This document shows positions 3,434-52,834 of a DNA stretch of 64,000 nucleotides, in pieces. The translations under genes were made by a program, and so were the position numbers. The stretch lies in the NCBI GenBank assembly GCA_022828105.1, contig JAJEJC010000010.1:1-64000 (forward strand). The letters run 5' to 3'. The stretch comes from Dehalococcoidia bacterium (GTDB taxonomy: Bacteria > Chloroflexota > Dehalococcoidia > Bin125). How positions within the stretch are numbered: the first letter of the stretch is position 1; every line of letters begins with the position of its first letter. The notes under the pieces are model-generated. The model worked only from the letters and a program-made list of their open reading frames with translations. It was not told the origin of the DNA and ran no database searches.

Positions 3434-5706
3434 AGCGCGTCGGTCTGTTCGCCGCAGTCTTGGTGGCCGTGGTCGCGACGCTGTTCCTGTTTGCCCGCGA
3501 CGCCGATGCCCACGCGCTGCTCGCCCGCGCCGATCCGCCGATCAACGCCTCGCTGCGCGAGTCGCCGACTCGGATCACGCTGTTCATGACCGAGCAGCTC
3601 CAGCGCACGCACAGTTCCGTACAGGTGCTGGACAGCGGCGGCCAGCGCCGCGACATCGGCGGCGCCGAGTTCTCCGACGCCGTACCCACGCAGATGAGCG
3701 TCCGCGTGCTGCGGCTTGACCCCGGCGTGTACACGGTGGCCTGGGAGACGCTCTCCGAGGTCGACGGTCACACCTGGACCGGCTCCTATGTGTTCTCGGT
3801 GCTCAATCCCGACGGTTCCGCGCCGGCCGGCAGCGGCATTGAGATCGACCTGGATCGACCCGGTCCGCCGGTCGCCGCCGACTCCGTCGTCAAGGCCATC
3901 GGACTCGGCGCATTGGTGCTGTTCGTCGGCGCGGTGTGCGTCTCGGCGCTGCTGCGTCCCTCGCCCGTATCAGCGCTCACGCCGTTGATGGCCGTGGCCG
4001 TGGTCGTCGGTCTCGCCGCGACCGGCTACGAGACCGTCGCGGGCGCGCTCAGGCTCGGTGACATTGGATTCCTTGGCGATATCCTCTTCGACTCCCGCAA
4101 CGGCCTCTGGCTGCAACAGCGCTGGTATGTCCTGATCGTCGCTGCCTTGCTACTCGCCTGGCGCCTCGCTCGATCCTCTTCCCTCCTGGAGCGTGGAAAT
4201 CGCAACTCTCTTCCCTCTCCCCCCCGGAGGGGGGGAGATGCCGAAGGCAGAGGGGGGGGCTCCCACCGCATGCTGCTGCTCATCCTGGCCCTGATCGCCG
4301 CCGTCTGGCTGGCCTCGTCCTCCGCCATCTCGCACGGCGCGGCGATCGGCTCCGGCTGGATCTGGGGCACGCTGTTCGATGCGCTGCACCTGGCGGCGGT
4401 CGCCGTCTGGATCGGCGGACTGGCCGCGCTACTCATCGCTGTCCGCGCCAACCCCGGCGACCGGATCGAATCGGTCCGCCGCTTCTCCGTCGTCGCCGCG
4501 CTGCTCGTGTCGATCCTCGTCGCCGCCGGTCTGCTCTCGGCGCTGATCCAGATTCCCGACATCGACGGCATCGTCGAGACCGATTGGGGCGCAGCCTTCA
4601 TCGTCAAGATGATCGGCCTGGCCCTCCTGTTTGGCGCCGCCGGCGCCAATGCGTTCTTCTTGCGGCCCCGCGACGCAGCCGCTTCCGGCGCGGACCCGGT
4701 CCTGGTTCGCAGATTCTCCCGAATGATGCGAGCCGAGCTCGTCCTTGGGCTCGCCGTGATCGCCGTCTCCGGCGTGCTGACCCAGCTTCCCTCGCCGGCG
4801 AGCGCCCAGCCCGAGGTCCAACAGAAAGACAACACGATCGTCGAGACGATCGCTCGCGGCGATGTCCTCGCATCGCTGGAGATCTCGCCCAACCTGGTCG
4901 GATTCAACACCTGGACTGCGACCATCGATGCGCCGGATGAGAATCCGGTCGAGATCATGTTGCTGCGCTTCCGTTACCAGGATCGCAGCGTCGGGCCGGT
5001 GACCGTCGCCGCGACGAAGATCGGCGAGAACCGGTTCCAGCTCGAAGGCGCGTACTTTGGCCTACCCGGTGACTGGACGGTTGAGATGGAGATGCGCCGG
5101 GCATCCGGCGATGATCTGGTCGGCGGCGTCCGCGCGAGCGTCGAGTCGGGCTACCAGGCCTCGCCGTTCGCCGCCGACCGAGGCGGCGCGCTCGCCCTGC
5201 CGCTGACGCAGATGGACTGGAACGGGGTCGGCGCGCTGTGGGCGTTCCTGATCGCGGCGCTGGCCTGGATCAATCGGCCCCACATCCGCGCACGCTGGGG
5301 TCCGCGCGGCGGTGACGCCGCCTTCGCCGGCGGCGTGTTGGGACTAATCGTCGCGGTGGTCTTGCTAACCGGGCTGCACGTCGAGCCTGGACGCACCCTG
5401 GCCAATCCCGTGTTGCGTAGCGAGGAGTCGGTCGAGCGCGGCGAGGCGCTGTTCGCCCGCAACTGTGTCTCCTGCCACGGCGAACAGGGCGCGGGCGACG
5501 GTCCGCTGGCCGACACGCTGCCAGCGCCTCCGGCCAACTTCACGGTCCATGTTCCGTTCCATCCCGACGGCGTGCTGTTCGCGTGGATCACGGACGGCAT
5601 TCGCGGCACCGGCATGCCCGCCTGGTCGCCCCAGCTCTCCGATCAGGAGCGATGGGATCTGGTCAACTTCCTCCGCGCGAGTTTTGATGTCCCGGCAGCC
5701 CGGTGA
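3430..5706 (+). CDS. CopC-CopD-cytochrome c fusion protein
   Basis: A 758-residue membrane protein. Order: signal peptide; CopC domain (from HALLARADPP, containing LDPGVYTVAW and the copper-binding-type VDGHTWTGSYVF); a CopD-type multi-helix membrane domain (about residues 150-460, with GAAIGSGWIWGTLFDALHLAAV-type helices); a periplasmic beta domain (about 470-590); another helix; and a C-terminal cytochrome c domain with heme motif CVSCH (Cys679, Cys682, His683) and likely axial Met729 in GTGMPAW. CopC/CopD act in copper uptake; the fused cytochrome c suggests electron transfer at the membrane. An interspersed repeat lies in frame at about residues 262-277 between two membrane helices. The start was set at the ATG overlapping the previous stop (ATGA), immediately before a good signal peptide. 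Confidence 0.88.
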   Translation: MKRVGLFAAVLVAVVATLFLFARDADAHALLARADPPINASLRESPTRITLFMTEQLQRTHSSVQVLDSGGQRRDIGGAEFSDAVPTQMSVRVLRLDPGVYTVAWETLSEVDGHTWTGSYVFSVLNPDGSAPAGSGIEIDLDRPGPPVAADSVVKAIGLGALVLFVGAVCVSALLRPSPVSALTPLMAVAVVVGLAATGYETVAGALRLGDIGFLGDILFDSRNGLWLQQRWYVLIVAALLLAWRLARSSSLLERGNRNSLPSPPRRGGDAEGRGGGSHRMLLLILALIAAVWLASSSAISHGAAIGSGWIWGTLFDALHLAAVAVWIGGLAALLIAVRANPGDRIESVRRFSVVAALLVSILVAAGLLSALIQIPDIDGIVETDWGAAFIVKMIGLALLFGAAGANAFFLRPRDAAASGADPVLVRRFSRMMRAELVLGLAVIAVSGVLTQLPSPASAQPEVQQKDNTIVETIARGDVLASLEISPNLVGFNTWTATIDAPDENPVEIMLLRFRYQDRSVGPVTVAATKIGENRFQLEGAYFGLPGDWTVEMEMRRASGDDLVGGVRASVESGYQASPFAADRGGALALPLTQMDWNGVGALWAFLIAALAWINRPHIRARWGPRGGDAAFAGGVLGLIVAVVLLTGLHVEPGRTLANPVLRSEESVERGEALFARNCVSCHGEQGAGDGPLADTLPAPPANFTVHVPFHPDGVLFAWITDGIRGTGMPAWSPQLSDQERWDLVNFLRASFDVPAAR
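4213..4260 (+). repeat. Interspersed palindromic repeat, copy 1 (inside CDS)
   Basis: Copy of the roughly 50-bp element found eight times in this window: a C-run/G-run hairpin followed by GATGCCGAAGGCAGAG and a G-run. Here it sits inside the CopC-CopD-cytochrome c gene and is translated in frame as a Pro/Gly/Arg-rich loop (PPRRGGDAEGRGG). Confidence 0.9.
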
Positions 5707-5780: not shown

Positions 5781-6815
5781 ATGGTGACCGCTATTGAGAA
5801 CCCGGGACTCAACCTTGACTGGCTGAACTTGGAGACGGACGACGAGTTCGAGATCAAGACCGGCCGAAAGGGCGTCACTCTCCAGTCCATTAACCAGCGC
5901 ATGGCCGGTGTCGAAGGCGTGGACCAGGCCGACTGGCGCTCCTTCGCGCCGCGCGGCATCGAGGCCGACCCGCGCTCCAACGCCCACGCCCGTCAGTACC
6001 GCGACAAGGGCGATGTCTGGTCCGAGTCGGCGATGCTGCTCTACGAAGAGGCGCTGCAGCGGCAGTGGTCCTCGGCGCGCGACATCCCCTGGGACACGAT
6101 TGGCGACCAGCCCGACGACATCGAAAAGGCAATGTGCACGCTCTGCACGTTCCTCACTCAGGTCGAGTTCATCGCCGGCGACGTGCCCGGCCGATTCCTC
6201 GAGTCGGTCCACCCCGACTTCTTCGAGTCTCAGCTCTTCCTCGGAACCCAGCTCATGGACGAAGCGCGCCACCTCGACGTCTTCCGCAAGCGCGTACTGG
6301 TCAATGGCGGCGGGATGTCGCCGGCCGGACTTGGCGCCGTGGGCCTGCTCGCCATTGACGACTTCACCGAGATGACCGCCATCCTCCACCTCTTCGCCGA
6401 AGGCCTGGTCCAGTCGCTCTTCCGCATGGGCGAGCTGATCGGCCAGAACGAGGCCGAGAAGCGCATGTTCCGCCTCTCCGCGCAGGACGAGTCGCGTCAC
6501 CTCGCGTTCGGTGTGACGCACACCAAGTACACCGTCGAGACGCAGCCCTGGCGCAAGGAAGAACTGCACCACTACCTCGACATCAACGAGACCGTGCAGA
6601 ACACGCAGGCCGGCCTGACCACCAACCCGATCACGGGCGAGGCGCTGGCCGTGCTCGCCGGCGGCGGCATCGAGTACCTCGACGAGGGTTACAACCTGCT
6701 CATGCTGATGCGCAAGAAGCAGATCAACGAGTACTACCACCGCCTCCAGGTGGTCGGCCTCGGCGACCGCCTCGACCGCATGGCGCCCGACCTGCGCGAG
6801 CTGATCACCGTCTAG
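5781..6815 (+). CDS. Ferritin-like diiron protein (RNR R2-like fold)
   Basis: 344 residues, mainly helical. It shows a complete set of candidate diiron ligands with ferritin-like spacing: Glu129 (TQVEFIAGD), Glu161-x-x-His164 (DEARH), Glu207 (LFAEGL) and Glu237-x-x-His240 (DESRH). This fits the ribonucleotide-reductase R2/R2lox/AurF-like superfamily, whose members are dioxygen-activating oxidases or oxygenases. The exact reaction cannot be read from the sequence. The start ATG has a purine-rich RBS (GGAGGAAG) about 15 bases upstream. The next gene (7015) is a paralog with most ligands lost, which suggests an active/inactive subunit pair. Confidence 0.8.
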   Translation: MVTAIENPGLNLDWLNLETDDEFEIKTGRKGVTLQSINQRMAGVEGVDQADWRSFAPRGIEADPRSNAHARQYRDKGDVWSESAMLLYEEALQRQWSSARDIPWDTIGDQPDDIEKAMCTLCTFLTQVEFIAGDVPGRFLESVHPDFFESQLFLGTQLMDEARHLDVFRKRVLVNGGGMSPAGLGAVGLLAIDDFTEMTAILHLFAEGLVQSLFRMGELIGQNEAEKRMFRLSAQDESRHLAFGVTHTKYTVETQPWRKEELHHYLDINETVQNTQAGLTTNPITGEALAVLAGGGIEYLDEGYNLLMLMRKKQINEYYHRLQVVGLGDRLDRMAPDLRELITV

Positions 6816-6828
6816 GCTCCCCGCGCTG

Positions 6829-6874
6829 CCCTCTCCCCTTGCGAAGCGGGGGGAGATGCCGAAGGCAGAGGGGG
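6829..6874 (+). repeat. Interspersed palindromic repeat, copy 2
   Basis: Intergenic copy of the same element between the two ferritin-like genes. Its second hairpin is GCC-GAA-GGC, and the first hairpin's loop reads TTGCGAA. Confidence 0.9.
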
Positions 6875-6920
6875 ATGCCCATTTGCCGACTTAAGCGAGT
6901 CAAACCTGGCAGAACCGAGC

Positions 6921-6972
6921 AGAATCTGACCTCAATCCGGACAAAGTCTGACCAGAATTGACCAGAATCGAG
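6921..6972 (+). repeat. Cluster of short TGACC/AGAAT direct repeats
   Basis: Between the two ferritin-like genes the motif AGAATcTGACC recurs in degenerate form (TCTGACC, TCTGACCAGAAT, TGACCAGAATCGAG), three TGACC units in about 50 bases. It lies 40-90 bases upstream of the 7015 start and could be a regulator-binding array. No regulator is identified. Confidence 0.45.
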
Positions 6973-7014
6973 CCAGCTGGACGCCGCTCGACCTGAAAAA
7001 CACGGGAGATCCCC

Positions 7015-8289
7015 ATGCCCGCCCTTTCACCCGCCCAAAAGATGCGCGCCCAGGTCCGTGGCTGGTCCGCCGAGTTGATCGAGCGCGCCGAGCAGTCCGC
7101 TGCCACGGGCACACAGCTCGACAACATCCTCAACATCGCAATTGAGCCCGATCGCGTCAGCAAATGGCTGGACTTCGTCGAGAACGATCCAGAGCATCCG
7201 TTTGCGCAGGCAAGCTTCATCATGTTCGAGAACGGCGGCGAGACGGGTCTCAGGCCGACCGCCTCCGAGGACGGCATGAGGCTCAGCGATGTCGATATCG
7301 GTTCATACGGCCACGTGCCCGATGTCTGGAGCTACCGCAACGACCTGCCCCGTGGCACGCGCCCGGTGCCGGGCATGTACATGCCCGCCGGCTACGCGAT
7401 CTACGACCGAACCGAAGTCTGGGCCGAGGGTGTCGCCGACCTCTACGAGGACGCCATCCGCGACCGCTGGGTCCCCGCCACCGACCTCGACTGGGAGAAC
7501 CGCGAGGAACTCGCGCCCGAGGTCGAGCGCGCCACCGGCCAGCTTTGCGCGATCTACTCGACCTACGGCATCGCCGAGCAGAAGATCATCTCCAAGTGGC
7601 TGGAGGAGATCTCCTACGGCTTCCACGAGGTCAAGCTGTTCCTCGCCACCCAGGTTTACGACGCGGGCCGCAAGGTCGAGGCGCTGCGCAAGCGCGCCCT
7701 GCACGGCTCCGGGATTATCGGCAAGGCGCCGCTCTCGGACGTCACCGAGAGCTGGTACAACGCCCTGACGTTCACCGACATGATCATCGCGCTGGACGTC
7801 GTCTACAAGTCCTACGAACTGACCGCGTTCGAGTGCGCCACCGACTGGGCCCGCTCGGACTTCGACCGTGACCTGTTCGCGCGCCTCGCCGAAGACAGCA
7901 AGCGGCACCTCGAGTACGGCCTCAAGCACCTGGAGTGGTACAACCGCTACGCCGAGCGCGCCGACCTGGAGCTGCCGATCTTCTTCATCAAGGCCGAAGG
8001 CGGTCTCTCCTCCGAGTTGGCTCAGTCGCCGCTTGAGCGCGAGGCGCTGGCCGTCCTCTATGCCGACGGCGTTGAGCGGCTCGACGCCGGTGTTGAGGAA
8101 CTGCGCAAGCTGCGGGAGAAGCAGTACCACGACTACCTGCACCGGCTGCACGAGCACGGCTTCGACCGGATCGGCGAAACGGCGACCATCCTCGGCCTGG
8201 TCACGCAGGACCCGCTGCTCAAGGCGCTCAACCCCGAGGCGCTGGTCGAAGGCGCAGCCGCCGGCACCACCGCGACCGATCGCGACTAG
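7015..8289 (+). CDS. Degenerate paralog of the upstream ferritin-like diiron protein
   Basis: 424 residues, clearly homologous to the 5781 product over the whole helical core (matching segments ELF/KLFLxTQ, FRKR/LRKR and EALAVL...LDxG...RKKQ/REKQ). Five of six expected metal ligands are replaced: Glu129 to Gly185, Glu161 to Ala217, His164 to Lys220, Glu207 to Lys265 and Glu237 to Ser295. Only the final His (His298) remains. It also has about 80 extra N-terminal residues. Because the frame is intact and the core is conserved, it is probably a functional non-catalytic partner, as the beta subunit is in bacterial multicomponent monooxygenases, rather than a pseudogene. This role is inference. 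Confidence 0.75.
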   Translation: MPALSPAQKMRAQVRGWSAELIERAEQSAATGTQLDNILNIAIEPDRVSKWLDFVENDPEHPFAQASFIMFENGGETGLRPTASEDGMRLSDVDIGSYGHVPDVWSYRNDLPRGTRPVPGMYMPAGYAIYDRTEVWAEGVADLYEDAIRDRWVPATDLDWENREELAPEVERATGQLCAIYSTYGIAEQKIISKWLEEISYGFHEVKLFLATQVYDAGRKVEALRKRALHGSGIIGKAPLSDVTESWYNALTFTDMIIALDVVYKSYELTAFECATDWARSDFDRDLFARLAEDSKRHLEYGLKHLEWYNRYAERADLELPIFFIKAEGGLSSELAQSPLEREALAVLYADGVERLDAGVEELRKLREKQYHDYLHRLHEHGFDRIGETATILGLVTQDPLLKALNPEALVEGAAAGTTATDRD

Positions 8290-8326
8290 TCGCTCTCGCG
8301 ACACAATCAGCACGTAGCATTGCGCT

Positions 8327-9127
8327 GTGGTGTCGCACGAGATCGAGATCAACTACGAGATCGACGGGCCGTCCGATGGGCGGCCCGTGCTCTTTGTCCA
8401 CGGCATTCTCACCTGCCGGGCGCACTGGCTGCTCAATCTGCCCGCGTTCCACGACGCGGGTTTCCGCAGCATCGCTGTAGACCTGTTCGGCCACGGTTCG
8501 TCTCCCTCGCCCGAGGACGAGGCCGCATACCATCCCGACCGATACACGGAGCGGTTCAGCGCGCTGCGAGAGCTCGTCGATGCCGAGCGCTGGTTCGTGG
8601 TCGGCCAGTCGCTGGGCGCCGCGCTGACGCTCAACTATGCGATGTCGCGTCCCGACGAGGTAATCGCCCACGTCGTGACCAACTCGCATTCCGCCTTCGG
8701 CGACCCGACCCGGATTGGCAATCCCCAGGCAGCCCGGGAGCGGGCGCAGATGATGATCGACGGCGGGATCGATGCGGTCATGCGCCACCCGCTCAACCCG
8801 CGGCGCGCCCGAGCCTTTAGCGACGCACAACGCGCTCGGTTCGACGACGCCATGCTGCTGAGTTCCGCCGACGGCATCGCGCGGACGATGCTGTATACCT
8901 CGCCCCACACGCCGCTGCGCCATCGCCTGCCGGACAATCCGGTCGACACACTGCTAGTCGCGGGCGATCGCGAGGAAGGCTTCACCGCCGCTCGCGAGTG
9001 GGTCGAGTCGAACGCAGGCAACTTCCGAGTCGAACGCGTCCCCGCCACGCACGCCGTCAACATCAGCGCAGCCGACGACTTCAATAGAATCTCCATAGGG
9101 TTCCTGGAGCAATTCTTGGACGGATGA
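8327..9127 (+). CDS. Alpha/beta hydrolase
   Basis: 266 residues, GTG start. A complete alpha/beta-hydrolase fold: oxyanion strand with VLFVHGILTCRAHW, nucleophile elbow VGQSLG (Ser95), acid Asp214 (AGDREEG) and His242 (ATHAVN). The layout resembles esterases, lactonases and dehalogenase-like hydrolases acting on small soluble substrates; the substrate is unknown. It stands in a plus-strand run after the ferritin-like pair (38-base gap), so it may belong to the same pathway. Confidence 0.88.
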   Translation: MVSHEIEINYEIDGPSDGRPVLFVHGILTCRAHWLLNLPAFHDAGFRSIAVDLFGHGSSPSPEDEAAYHPDRYTERFSALRELVDAERWFVVGQSLGAALTLNYAMSRPDEVIAHVVTNSHSAFGDPTRIGNPQAARERAQMMIDGGIDAVMRHPLNPRRARAFSDAQRARFDDAMLLSSADGIARTMLYTSPHTPLRHRLPDNPVDTLLVAGDREEGFTAAREWVESNAGNFRVERVPATHAVNISAADDFNRISIGFLEQFLDG

Positions 9128-42306: not shown

Positions 42307-43911
42307 ATGACACTGAACGACCTGCACGGTCACAGACTGCCGCGCCGTGAGCTGCTGAGGCGAATCGGAGTCGTCTTCGGTGGACTGAGTGCAACCGCAT
42401 TGGTTGGCTGCGGCGGCGAAGAACCGGACCAGCAAGTCCAGAATACCGCGCCGCAGCCGGACCCTCGACCAGAGCCGCAATCGCAACAGGCTCTGACCGC
42501 GCCCGACCAACAGGTGCAGCCGCACCAGAAAGTCGCCCCGCAACCTCAACCGGTCGCGGACGAAGAGTCACAGCCGCAGCAGGTTCAGCAGCCTCAGAGC
42601 CAGCCGCAACCTGCCCAGCCGCAACCTGCTCAGCCGGAACCGCGTCCCGAGCGGCGCCTGCTCGTTCCGGACCTGCCCGTCGGCGACTACGAACTACAGG
42701 ACCCCGCGTTCGACCCGGTCGCCGGAGCGCGAGTCGACTACGGAGTGATCGAAGGCGCGGGCTACCGGATCGAACTGCCCGAGCAGTGGAACGGCGAGCT
42801 CGTCCTCTGGGCGCATGGATTCCGCGGCCTCAACGACGAAGGCAGCGGCTACAGCAACCGGCTCAGCTTCGACGACATCCCGGCGCGCGACGTGACAATT
42901 GGGCAGGGGTACGGCTGGGCGACATCGACGTACCGCGCCAATGGCTACGTGCCCGGCCTGGGCGTCGACGATTTGCTGCGGGTCAAGGACCGCGTCGCGG
43001 AAGTCGCTCGACCGCCGAGCCGCACCTACATCGCCGGCGGATCGATGGGCGGCGCGACTGCGCAGCTCATGGCTCAGGAGTTCCCCGAGGAGATCGCGGC
43101 CGCCCTCGCCTTCTGCCCGGCCATGGGCAACGTCTGGGTCGTTGACTACCTCGTCGCCTGGCACGCGCTCGCGCATTACCTGATCGGCAGCGAACCGCAA
43201 CGGCTCGATGTGACTGGGATGATCGACTGGAGCTCCACGCTGGGCGTCGCCGACGACTCGGGACTCCATCTCAGCGCGCTCGGCGAGCAGTTTGCCGCGC
43301 TGATCGAGGACTTCAGCGGGGGCGAGCGCTGGGGATTCGAGGAGGGCCTGCGCCAGCAGTGGAACGTATCGTTCGCGCTCGGCGCGGTGCTTTGGCCGGA
43401 CATCGTCGACACGGGAACGCTCGCTCCGGGATCCGTGGTCGAGATCGCTGGGCAACAACCGCCCGCCGACACCCGCGACCACGTCTACTCGGCGGATTCC
43501 GCCGCCGGCATTGACCTGGAACGGCTCAACGCCGAGGTGATCCGGGTCGCCTCGGATCCCGTGCGCCGCCACGACCCCGGGATCGGACTGCCCAGCGGCG
43601 TTCTTACGGTCCCGCTGCTCACGATGACGACGACCGGCGACCTGTTCACGCCGATTCACCTGTCCCGCGACTATCAGAGACTGCTCGCCGAGACGGGTAA
43701 CGCTGCCAACCTCGTCGTCCAACCGGTCCGCCGGGCCGGACATTGCAACTTCTCCGAGCGGGAGTCACTCGGCGCGATCACCAGCATCGTCGCCTGGCTC
43801 GGCTTCGGCTTGGTGCCCCCCGGCGACGACCTGCAAGGCGACCTCAGCACGGTTGGCACTCGCTTCACGGACCCATTCGACGAGCACGATCCCCTGCGTC
43901 CCCTCCAATGA
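42307..43911 (+). CDS. Tat/lipoprotein-type secreted alpha/beta hydrolase with Pro/Gln linker
   Basis: 534 residues. The N-terminus carries twin arginine (LPRRELLRR) and a lipobox-like ATALVGCGG (Cys37 or so), so export by Tat and lipid anchoring are likely. A Pro/Gln-rich linker of about 80 residues contains QPQPAQ repeats. The catalytic domain has LWAHGFRG, nucleophile motif GGSMGG and a late GHCNFSE His, with lid helices between, as in secreted tannase/feruloyl-esterase-like or polyester-type hydrolases. Substrate unknown. Confidence 0.8.
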   Translation: MTLNDLHGHRLPRRELLRRIGVVFGGLSATALVGCGGEEPDQQVQNTAPQPDPRPEPQSQQALTAPDQQVQPHQKVAPQPQPVADEESQPQQVQQPQSQPQPAQPQPAQPEPRPERRLLVPDLPVGDYELQDPAFDPVAGARVDYGVIEGAGYRIELPEQWNGELVLWAHGFRGLNDEGSGYSNRLSFDDIPARDVTIGQGYGWATSTYRANGYVPGLGVDDLLRVKDRVAEVARPPSRTYIAGGSMGGATAQLMAQEFPEEIAAALAFCPAMGNVWVVDYLVAWHALAHYLIGSEPQRLDVTGMIDWSSTLGVADDSGLHLSALGEQFAALIEDFSGGERWGFEEGLRQQWNVSFALGAVLWPDIVDTGTLAPGSVVEIAGQQPPADTRDHVYSADSAAGIDLERLNAEVIRVASDPVRRHDPGIGLPSGVLTVPLLTMTTTGDLFTPIHLSRDYQRLLAETGNAANLVVQPVRRAGHCNFSERESLGAITSIVAWLGFGLVPPGDDLQGDLSTVGTRFTDPFDEHDPLRPLQ

Positions 43912-44002: not shown

Positions 44003-45232
44003 CTATCGCGCGAAGCCGGCCGGGATCATCCCGATCACCAGGCCGGCGACTCGCCGATCCTCGCTCTCGCGCATCCGACCTACGATCTGTCGCAGCACCG
44101 TCCCCAGCAGGGTTTGGTTGAACAGCCAGTCGTTGAGGTCCGCATCGGTCGGATAGTTCGCGCCCGGCTGAGCCGTCACCGCCTCGTGATAGAAGGCGCG
44201 CAGGTCGTCCGAGGCGAACTTGAGCCTTACCGGCATCGGGTGATTCCAGTCAATCTCGCCGTCAGACGGCTCGGCGCCCGTGGCGAAGTCGGCCAGCAGC
44301 GCGGCCAGGTCTTCCACCTGTTGCAACGACGCACCGGAGATGCCGACCGTCGATCGCCCGCGCCGCTTGACCGACTCGGCGTGCCAGGGCGCGAGTTGGC
44401 GAATCTCTCCGATCAGCTGGTCGCGCAGCACCTCGGCCTCGTCGGCCGGCTCCGGCGGAGCCAGCGCGACCGCGCAGGCCCACGGGTCGTCGCCGGAGGT
44501 CGGCGCGTCGTGCGGGTAGTCGGCGAGCGTGGTTCCGGACGCCGATTCCAGCAGGTCTAGCGCCGTGCGCAGGACGTCGCGCTGGAAGTCGGGCTGATCG
44601 GGCGATCCCAACGGGCGTCCGAGCGGGAACGGCACGAACAACGAACGCGGCGGCTTCATGCCCTCGGCATGCTCACGGATCAGCGATACGCCGGTCGTCG
44701 CCACGCGGCCCTCACTGCCGCGTTCGATGTAGTGGCTGAGCGCGCACACGGCGCGCGTGCAGAACGGTCAAACCGGTGTCAGGAACGCCGCGTTGACTCC
44801 GTCTTCGGCCAGCAACCGGCCGATCTCCTCTCCCGTCTTCTCCAACCGCGTGGGATCGGGCTGCGCGCCCATGAACGAGTAGTGATAGCGGCTCACGCCC
44901 GCGATCACGCCCTGCTCGGCCAGCTCGCGCAGCCGTTCGAGCGGAAACACGGTGTTGATGTCCTGTTGGAATCCGGAGCGGTCGAAGTTGACCGACAGAT
45001 GCGACATGCGCAGGTCGGCGAAGTCGATCTCGCCCGGAATCAGCCGGTACTCGACCGATCCCGGATTGAACGGCCGGTCGTCGTGCGCGTGCATGCCGGC
45101 CGTCGTGACGATCGCCACCGTCGTTTCCGACAGCGGTCGCGGCGCAATCCACGGCTGCGGCTCAATCTCCGGCAATGGCAGACTGAGCAGGTTCTTGGCC
45201 ATGTCGGGGTGCATGTCGGACGTGCGGACCAT
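44003..45232 (-). CDS. GrdB-like (glycine/sarcosine/betaine reductase B family) probable selenoprotein
   Basis: 409 residues if the in-frame TGA at 44768-44770 is read as selenocysteine (residue 155). The frame continues without other interruption for 255 codons after it. The flanks fit the family: before it PFNPGSVEYRLIP, NTVFPLERLRELAEQGVI and YHYSFMG; around it FLTPV-U-PFCTR, i.e. a U-x-x-C redox motif where relatives have C-x-x-C or, in GrdB, U-G-T-C. After it come RSLFVPFPLGRPLG and further conserved helices. A hairpin starts 11 bases after the TGA (see SECIS entry). Members reduce C-N or related bonds or act as redox proteins; the substrate is unknown. A sequencing error (TGC to TGA) is the alternative. 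Confidence 0.75.
44740..44756 (-). promoter_or_regulatory. Candidate bacterial SECIS hairpin
   Basis: Read on the minus strand, GCGCGC-CGTGT-GCGCGC begins 11 bases after the TGA. It gives a perfect 6-bp stem with a five-base loop whose second base is G, about 19 bases from the TGA, within the range described for bacterial SECIS elements. A GC-rich genome makes chance hairpins common, so this is supportive, not proof. Confidence 0.5.
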
Positions 45233-45745: not shown

Positions 45746-46486
45746 ATGCAACGCGATCCACAACCCCCCGACCCGGACCTCCCCGCCTGGCTGCAGAAAG
45801 CCGACAGCATTCCCCAGGTCGACCCTGTTGCCGTGCTCGGCGCCGCGCCGACGCTCTTCTATCTGATCTTCAATGCCATCGCCGGCGTCCGACCCGCGAT
45901 CGCGGCCGCCGTTATCGTCGGCGTGGCGGTCTATGCGATTCAGCGTCACTACCGCCCGCAGATCACGATGGTGCGCTGGCTGATGGTCTTCAGCGTCGCC
46001 TTCAACGTCGGCTTCGGCGTCTGGGGACTGGTCGAGGGCGACGGCAAGGTCTACTGGGCCCGCGACTTCATCGACAACTTCGTGCTCGGCGGCCTCTTCC
46101 TGCTCAGCGTCTTCCTCGGCCGCCCGATCGTTAGCGCCCTCGTCCGCGAGACGTTTCCCGAGCTGCGCGAACGCATGCCGGCCGACCACCGCGTCTGGAT
46201 CCGTCTGACCATCGTCTGGGGACTCTACATCGCGCTCGCCGGCGTGCTGCGCTGGTGGATCCTCGACCAGGTCAGCGCCGGTACGTACGCATTGATCCGA
46301 CTGCCCCTCGGCTGGGGGCTCGGCCTGCTGCTGATGCTCTGGACCTTCAACAGCCTCCGCCGCGCCACGCGCGAGGTCGCCCTTGAGCGCCTGCGCCCAG
46401 ACCCCGGCGACTCAGGCCAGGAGTCTGGCCCAGCATCAGGCGATGCCGGCGAAGTGGTCGCGGATGCCGAGATCGCCGAACGCTGA
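45746..46486 (+). CDS. Membrane protein, possibly DUF3159/septation-protein-like
   Basis: 246 residues with about five or six hydrophobic helices (first APTLFYLIFNAIAGVRPAIAAAVIVGVA-type). The sequence FLLSVFLGRPIVSALVRETFPEL and the general plan resemble DUF3159-type membrane proteins of actinobacteria, but this is a pattern match from memory. The C-terminus is polar and overlaps the 3' end of the convergent dehydrogenase gene by 51 bases. Confidence 0.65.
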   Translation: MQRDPQPPDPDLPAWLQKADSIPQVDPVAVLGAAPTLFYLIFNAIAGVRPAIAAAVIVGVAVYAIQRHYRPQITMVRWLMVFSVAFNVGFGVWGLVEGDGKVYWARDFIDNFVLGGLFLLSVFLGRPIVSALVRETFPELRERMPADHRVWIRLTIVWGLYIALAGVLRWWILDQVSAGTYALIRLPLGWGLGLLLMLWTFNSLRRATREVALERLRPDPGDSGQESGPASGDAGEVVADAEIAER

Positions 46487-52646: not shown

Positions 52647-52687
52647 GCCCTACTGCCGTTCCGCTGTGTTAACCTGACCCACAACAA

Positions 52688-52778
52688 AGCCGGGGTGGTC
52701 CACCGTCGAGACGACGGGTCCAGGGCCTGAGAACACACCCGCCGAACCTGATCCGGGTAATGCCGGCGCAGGGAGCGC
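52688..52778 (+). promoter_or_regulatory. TPP riboswitch
   Basis: The aptamer core is visible: CTGAGA (52727-52732), then ACCCGCCGAACCTGATC and GGGTAATGCCGGCGCAGGGA, matching the pyrimidine- and pyrophosphate-sensing arms of the thiamine pyrophosphate riboswitch. About 57 bases later comes the thiD ATG; between them CCCC (52815-52818) can pair with GGGG (52824-52827) that overlaps the likely Shine-Dalgarno, suggesting translational control of the thiamine operon when TPP is abundant. Confidence 0.95.
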
Positions 52779-52834
52779 AGCGAACTTCAGGCCCGCCCAA
52801 CCAACCGACGACCGCCCCACAGCGGGGACTCGTA

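Follow-up and report, generated by a model that had tools for sequence, protein, structure and literature searches.

A predicted selenocysteine-containing, PrdB-like protein with an added helical domain in a Dehalococcoidia bacterium

In the window analysed here (the whole stretch of 64,000 nucleotides from a Dehalococcoidia bacterium) a gene of 409 codons has a single interruption, an in-frame TGA that almost certainly directs the insertion of selenocysteine (Sec) at codon 155. The product is probably a Sec-containing, stand-alone reductase related to PrdB. A sequence-only reading of the same DNA had proposed a new selenoprotein with a U-x-x-C motif in a GrdB-like family. The Sec machinery of the genome, the conservation of the TGA and the covariation of the predicted SECIS support the selenoprotein, its motif and its family; the word "new" did not stand, because UxxC members of pfam07355 have already been reported from the Sargasso Sea and GOS data (PMC1088965, PMC2398784). 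What appears to be new, as far as our tools show, is a separate Sec-only clade with an extra domain and with no PrdA/GrdE partner found. No description of this clade, of its domain or of the absent partner was found in the literature consulted, most of it outside subscription journals.

Selenocysteine at codon 155

The gene lies on the minus strand, which the sequence-only reading had not given, and the TGA that it had placed at 44768-44770 was recovered (read as 44770-44768, in the context FLTPV-U-PFC). The list of open reading frames holds the gene as two halves of 154 and 248 residues, counted from the list's own start codons, in the same frame. Family sequence does continue beyond the TGA as had been claimed, over 254 residues and then TAG rather than over 255 codons. 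The following features were assigned:

44003-45232, minus strand: selenoprotein gene, ATG at 45232, TAG at 44005-44003, 409 residues with predicted Sec155
44528-45232, minus strand: PrdB-like alpha/beta domain, residues 1-235 (TIGR04483 over residues 24-230, E 1.4e-31; Pfam GRDB; pLDDT 85.6)
44768-44770, minus strand: in-frame TGA, predicted Sec155 of U-P-F-C (TGA in 31/31 loci and 87/87 genes of the scan; aligns with annotated PrdB TGA)
44759-44761, minus strand: Cys158 of UxxC, partner of Sec155 (invariant in alignments A1, A2 and A6)
44740-44756, minus strand: predicted apical hairpin of a bacterial SECIS, GCGCGC - CGUGU - GCGCGC (covariation in 43 sequences; arm shuffling in 93)
44474-44476, minus strand: Cys253 (W-A-C), present in 90% or more of 57 sequences with the extension and missing in a few divergent members
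44006-44515, minus strand: C-terminal helical domain, residues 240-409, which marks the long clade (model pLDDT 91.2, helices only)

Across 60 related genomes, TGA was present in the matches that cover position 155, and in all 31 loci then read it stood in the same column. A scan of 84,980 species genomes used only the residues downstream of the TGA as query, which removed any bias of the search towards TGA. It returned 220 relatives; among the best 80 loci, every one of the 87 readable long genes had TGA at the Sec column and none had Cys. Long homologues with TGA occur in Dehalococcoidia, Acidimicrobiia, Gamma- and Alphaproteobacteria and Desulfobulbaceae. It had been suggested that relatives carry the redox Cys at this position. 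This is true of some short relatives (about 240 aa) from the same phylum, which read LTAG-C-PLC; the long relatives all have TGA.

In a tree of the shared domain with the Sec column masked, the 70 extension-bearing proteins formed one side of a branch (SH-aLRT 98; a quick search with this support measure only, and with short relatives drawn from the phylum, not from outside). Sec was present in all 70 of these non-redundant long-clade proteins, and Cys in 7 of 26 short ones sampled in the phylum. The tree requires three changes between Sec and Cys, all of them outside the long clade, since that clade has no Cys. The closest genomes are Dehalococcoidia MAGs, including bin125 (record MPNM) of the sponge Aplysina aerophoba, and the host bacterium is sponge- and sea-associated.

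A second Sec-containing member, 46% identical, was found in the same genome (G000:C7:343034-344263, locus L023) beside clpS- and recQ-like reading frames, named by eye. Tandem Sec paralogues in two or three copies were seen in genomes of the same genus (L113, at 3905-5233, 6129-7463 and 7521-8849; L121; L123; L126). In an alphaproteobacterial MAG, two adjacent Sec members are separated by a few bases (L156, 7539-8765 and 8773-10017) and are possibly a heteromeric pair.

The 6-bp hairpin with a G-containing loop that had been noted at SECIS distance was located at 44756-44740, 12-28 nt past the UGA, with the loop CGUGU. Folded as a single sequence it was no better than shuffles (z -0.44), and covariation was therefore used. 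All sequences align without gaps over 48 nt from the UGA. Among 43 sequences, 91.5% of cells were paired between stem columns 15-20 and 26-31, where shuffled data gave 77.4±1.6%; double changes numbered 41, compared with 12.3 in the shuffled data. When whole 3' arms were shuffled among 93 sequences, 428±6 of 558 positions were paired, compared with 492 observed. Pairing statistics of this kind are inflated by relatedness, which is retained in controls with the stem partner slid by 1-3 columns; these gave at most 63% pairing. The stem pairs vary jointly with the amino acids (CGC..GCG, GGT..ACC, TCC..GGA, CAC..GTG, TAC..GTA), RNAalifold, unaided, recovers five of the six pairs, and the GU of the apical loop is nearly invariant. 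We regard the hairpin as real, and predict that it is the bacterial SECIS of a genuine selenoprotein. An Rfam scan of the 64-kb window detected a TPP riboswitch (52681-52791, plus strand, 58.9 bits) and a tRNA, and nothing else.

A search for selA, selB, selC and selD had been recommended as a check, and all were found in the host genome (2.74 Mb, 97% complete). SelA scored 525.7 bits, SelB 349.9 bits (with its neighbour in frame, above the curated cut-off) and SelD 353.5 bits; ARAGORN read the anticodon of tRNA-Sec as TCA. The SelD gene has an in-frame TGA of its own, in ARCGGUGSKFGPE. In the family, all 20 genomes searched had SelA above the cut-off; so did 28 of 33 homologue-bearing genomes, compared with 10 of 28 homologue-free ones. 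In a study of Aplysina aerophoba symbionts, SelA and SelB were reported from most bins (PMC5649159). One genome of the same class, given as 95% complete (G037), has four short homologues with TGA and no SelA match; a missing contig, a diverged SelA or another way to read TGA are the possibilities.

Family, architecture and candidate reaction

The protein matches Pfam PF07355 (GRDB) with 39.3 bits, above the gathering cut-off of 22 bits, and 14 of 14 members of alignment A1 match this family with E values no worse than 0.1. Of the NCBIfam models, TIGR04483 (PrdB) scored highest with 109.8 bits, GrdB-type models giving at most 53.3 bits, and the Sec is aligned onto the TGA of both Peptoclostridium and Acetoanaerobium PrdB. 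These scores identify PrdB rather than GrdB as the closer named relative. The TIGR04483 cut-off of 300 bits is missed by the window protein and passed by PrdB of Peptoclostridium (310) and Acetoanaerobium (421). TIGR01918 gave 50.9 bits, over profile positions 219-422 only, and its full-length cut-off is 65.45 bits. The window protein falls under every NCBIfam cut-off; because no NCBIfam selenoprotein model reaches its cut-off, automatic annotation likely splits such genes at the TGA.

Proteins of the long clade have about 390-480 aa. Their C-terminal domain (about 170 residues) matched no Pfam family. In the model, Sec155 lies in the alpha/beta domain immediately ahead of a helix. With the whole model as query, Foldseek found nothing in the PDB at E<=0.001. 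In VIA-align, LacI/periplasmic-binding-like and Rossmann-like chains aligned over residues 32-246 with Z as high as 8.1, and one MlrC (microcystinase C) chain reached 7.4; all of these scores are within the range of common alpha/beta arrangements. For the C-terminal domain alone, no relative was identified in the PDB (best Z 4.4, Foldseek E 0.9), a result that does not amount to proof of a new fold. A family-profile sequence search of the PDB gave no credible match.

In the mechanism described in the literature for GrdB and PrdB, a selenolate attacks a carbon of the substrate. On the comparative evidence, SelB and Sec-tRNA, directed by the downstream hairpin, almost certainly read UGA codon 155 as selenocysteine. 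By analogy, the selenolate would attack a small organic molecule, the step put forward for GrdB, PrdB and FarB. Cys158 would resolve the seleno-adduct to a selenenylsulfide, which a thioredoxin-type donor would re-reduce. Cys253 is a possible third redox residue that perhaps acts alongside Sec155 and Cys158. The fused helical domain may close the active site, or may supply the specificity given by a second subunit in the known enzymes. The genome yielded no pyruvoyl-forming PrdA/GrdE proprotein, and so the enzyme probably acts without a partner subunit. Whether it would act on C-N or C-X bonds is, by this analogy, about an even question; for FarB, the proposal of selenolate attack has been extended to a C-F bond (PMC10838667).

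The neighbours of the gene in the window are a hydrolase in convergent orientation and a short ORF in divergent orientation, and the gene has no operon partner there. Across the genus, and likewise in one other genus, sucC/sucD adjoin the selenoprotein gene, which may be plain synteny. In most of nine proteobacterial loci the homologue is followed immediately on its 3' side by a TauD-type gene, dehydrogenases lie near proteobacterial homologues, and Rieske, FMO-like or luciferase-like oxygenases and AMP-ligases were seen near other members. The proteobacterial neighbours hint weakly at a role in oxygen-dependent catabolism of organic compounds, weakly because the contexts vary from lineage to lineage and there is no operon around the window gene. 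The repeat GCGGGGGGAGATG has eight copies in the window compared with 0.36 expected (6846, 22955, 28096, 28163, 43936, 45695, 50551, 50567), two of which flank the selenoprotein gene region.

The neighbour genes, from which the lineages look oxygen-using, would also suit a Se-dependent redox or detoxifying protein (acting on peroxide, disulfide or sulfoxide) built on a PrdB-like scaffold, instead of a C-N/C-X reductase. UxxC is a thiol-redox motif, and such a role is common among marine selenoproteins (PMC2398784). We consider this reading unlikely, though deserving of attention: the sequence around the PrdB-like domain is extensively conserved, which points to a specific small substrate, and the fold searches gave no thioredoxin-like match.

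Much less credit can be given to a PrdB subunit that acts with PrdA in Stickland-type reduction of proline. The D-proline reductases known come from anaerobes that ferment amino acids. The enzyme needs the PrdA proprotein, its pyruvoyl group coming from a PF09338-type chain. The top NCBIfam match and the shared positions of Sec and Cys speak for such a subunit. However, PF09338 (PrdA/GrdE) had no match in the host genome, while the positive control gave five matches in an Acetoanaerobium record, one of them adjoining prdB. At 97% completeness there is a small chance that the partner sits in the missing part. TIGR04480 and GrdA (PF04723) had no match in the host genome either, with the positive control silent as well in both cases. 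There are no prd genes among the neighbours, and PrdB proteins are without the C-terminal domain seen here. Because the protein belongs to a long clade with this extra domain, scores far under the PrdB cut-off and has no PrdA/GrdE homologue in its genome, it is unlikely to be a D-proline reductase; a stand-alone PrdB-like reductase is the reading that we prefer.

Two further explanations would deny Sec at codon 155. A sequencing artefact or stop mutation (a reading error or a pseudogene) is scarcely conceivable and is in practice refuted by the comparative data, even if the SECIS hairpin is unremarkable when folded by itself: every long homologue has TGA there, the hairpin covaries, 14 further genomes of the genus keep the TGA at the identical codon, and dN/dS is 0.04-0.22 (strong purifying selection) both before and after it, which in practice excludes a sequencing error. 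An altered genetic code with TGA as Trp or Gly, which the open frame alone would allow, has just as little to commend it: the selenoprotein gene stops with TAG and its neighbours with TGA (43909-43911, 46484-46486), so TGA is an ordinary stop elsewhere, a complete Sec machinery is encoded, and residue 155 falls on the Sec column of PrdB, where short relatives have Cys.

Comparison with known systems

The window protein is homologous to PrdB over residues 24-230, with Sec in the same column and UxxC in both. The two are 32-35% identical, and the motif is LTAG-U-GTCHR in PrdB and LTPV-U-PFCTR here. PrdB ends at about 240 aa and requires PrdA, whereas the window protein has a further 170 residues and no PrdA/GrdE homologue was found in its genome. 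With GrdB, GrdF and GrdH (PF07355, TIGR01918) of glycine, sarcosine and betaine reductase it shares UxxC and matches the C-terminal half of GrdB; it differs in having no GrdB N-terminal half, in scoring under the subfamily cut-off and in having no GrdE homologue found. FarB is likewise a GrdB homologue, and its Sec has been proposed to attack the C-F bond; it is, however, anaerobic, with FarE (a GrdE homologue) and a radical-SAM protein as proposed partners (PMC10838667). Short Cys relatives in Chloroflexota (L064, L065, L069-L071, L074-L077) share the N-terminal domain, with C-P-L-C for U-P-F-C, but they are without the C-terminal domain and stand elsewhere on the tree.

Few selenoprotein families are as abundant in ocean metagenomes as "PrdB", yet the D-proline reductases known come from anaerobic fermenters of amino acids. 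In the marine reports of 2005 and 2008, UxxC "PrdB" (pfam07355) made up 42 of 310 selenoproteins of the Sargasso Sea and 235 sequences of GOS (PMC1088965, PMC2398784), and "proline reductase" accounted for 6.4% in a later survey (PMC9402790). The window protein shares Pfam family, motif and abundance at sea with these proteins, and the marine counts may well include members of its clade; D-proline reduction was assigned there by homology (PMC1088965, PMC2398784). It is conceivable, at slightly less than an even chance, that much of the marine "D-proline reductase PrdB" is a separate, stand-alone reductase family of oxygen-using bacteria, in which a helical domain replaces PrdA/GrdE and Sec cannot be replaced by Cys. 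With 70 non-redundant proteins from several phyla and no change from Sec to Cys seen, the clade offers a good case in which to study why selenium cannot be dispensed with there. Given its own domain and the PrdA partner that was looked for and not found, one widespread group at least should not carry the annotation of proline reductase.
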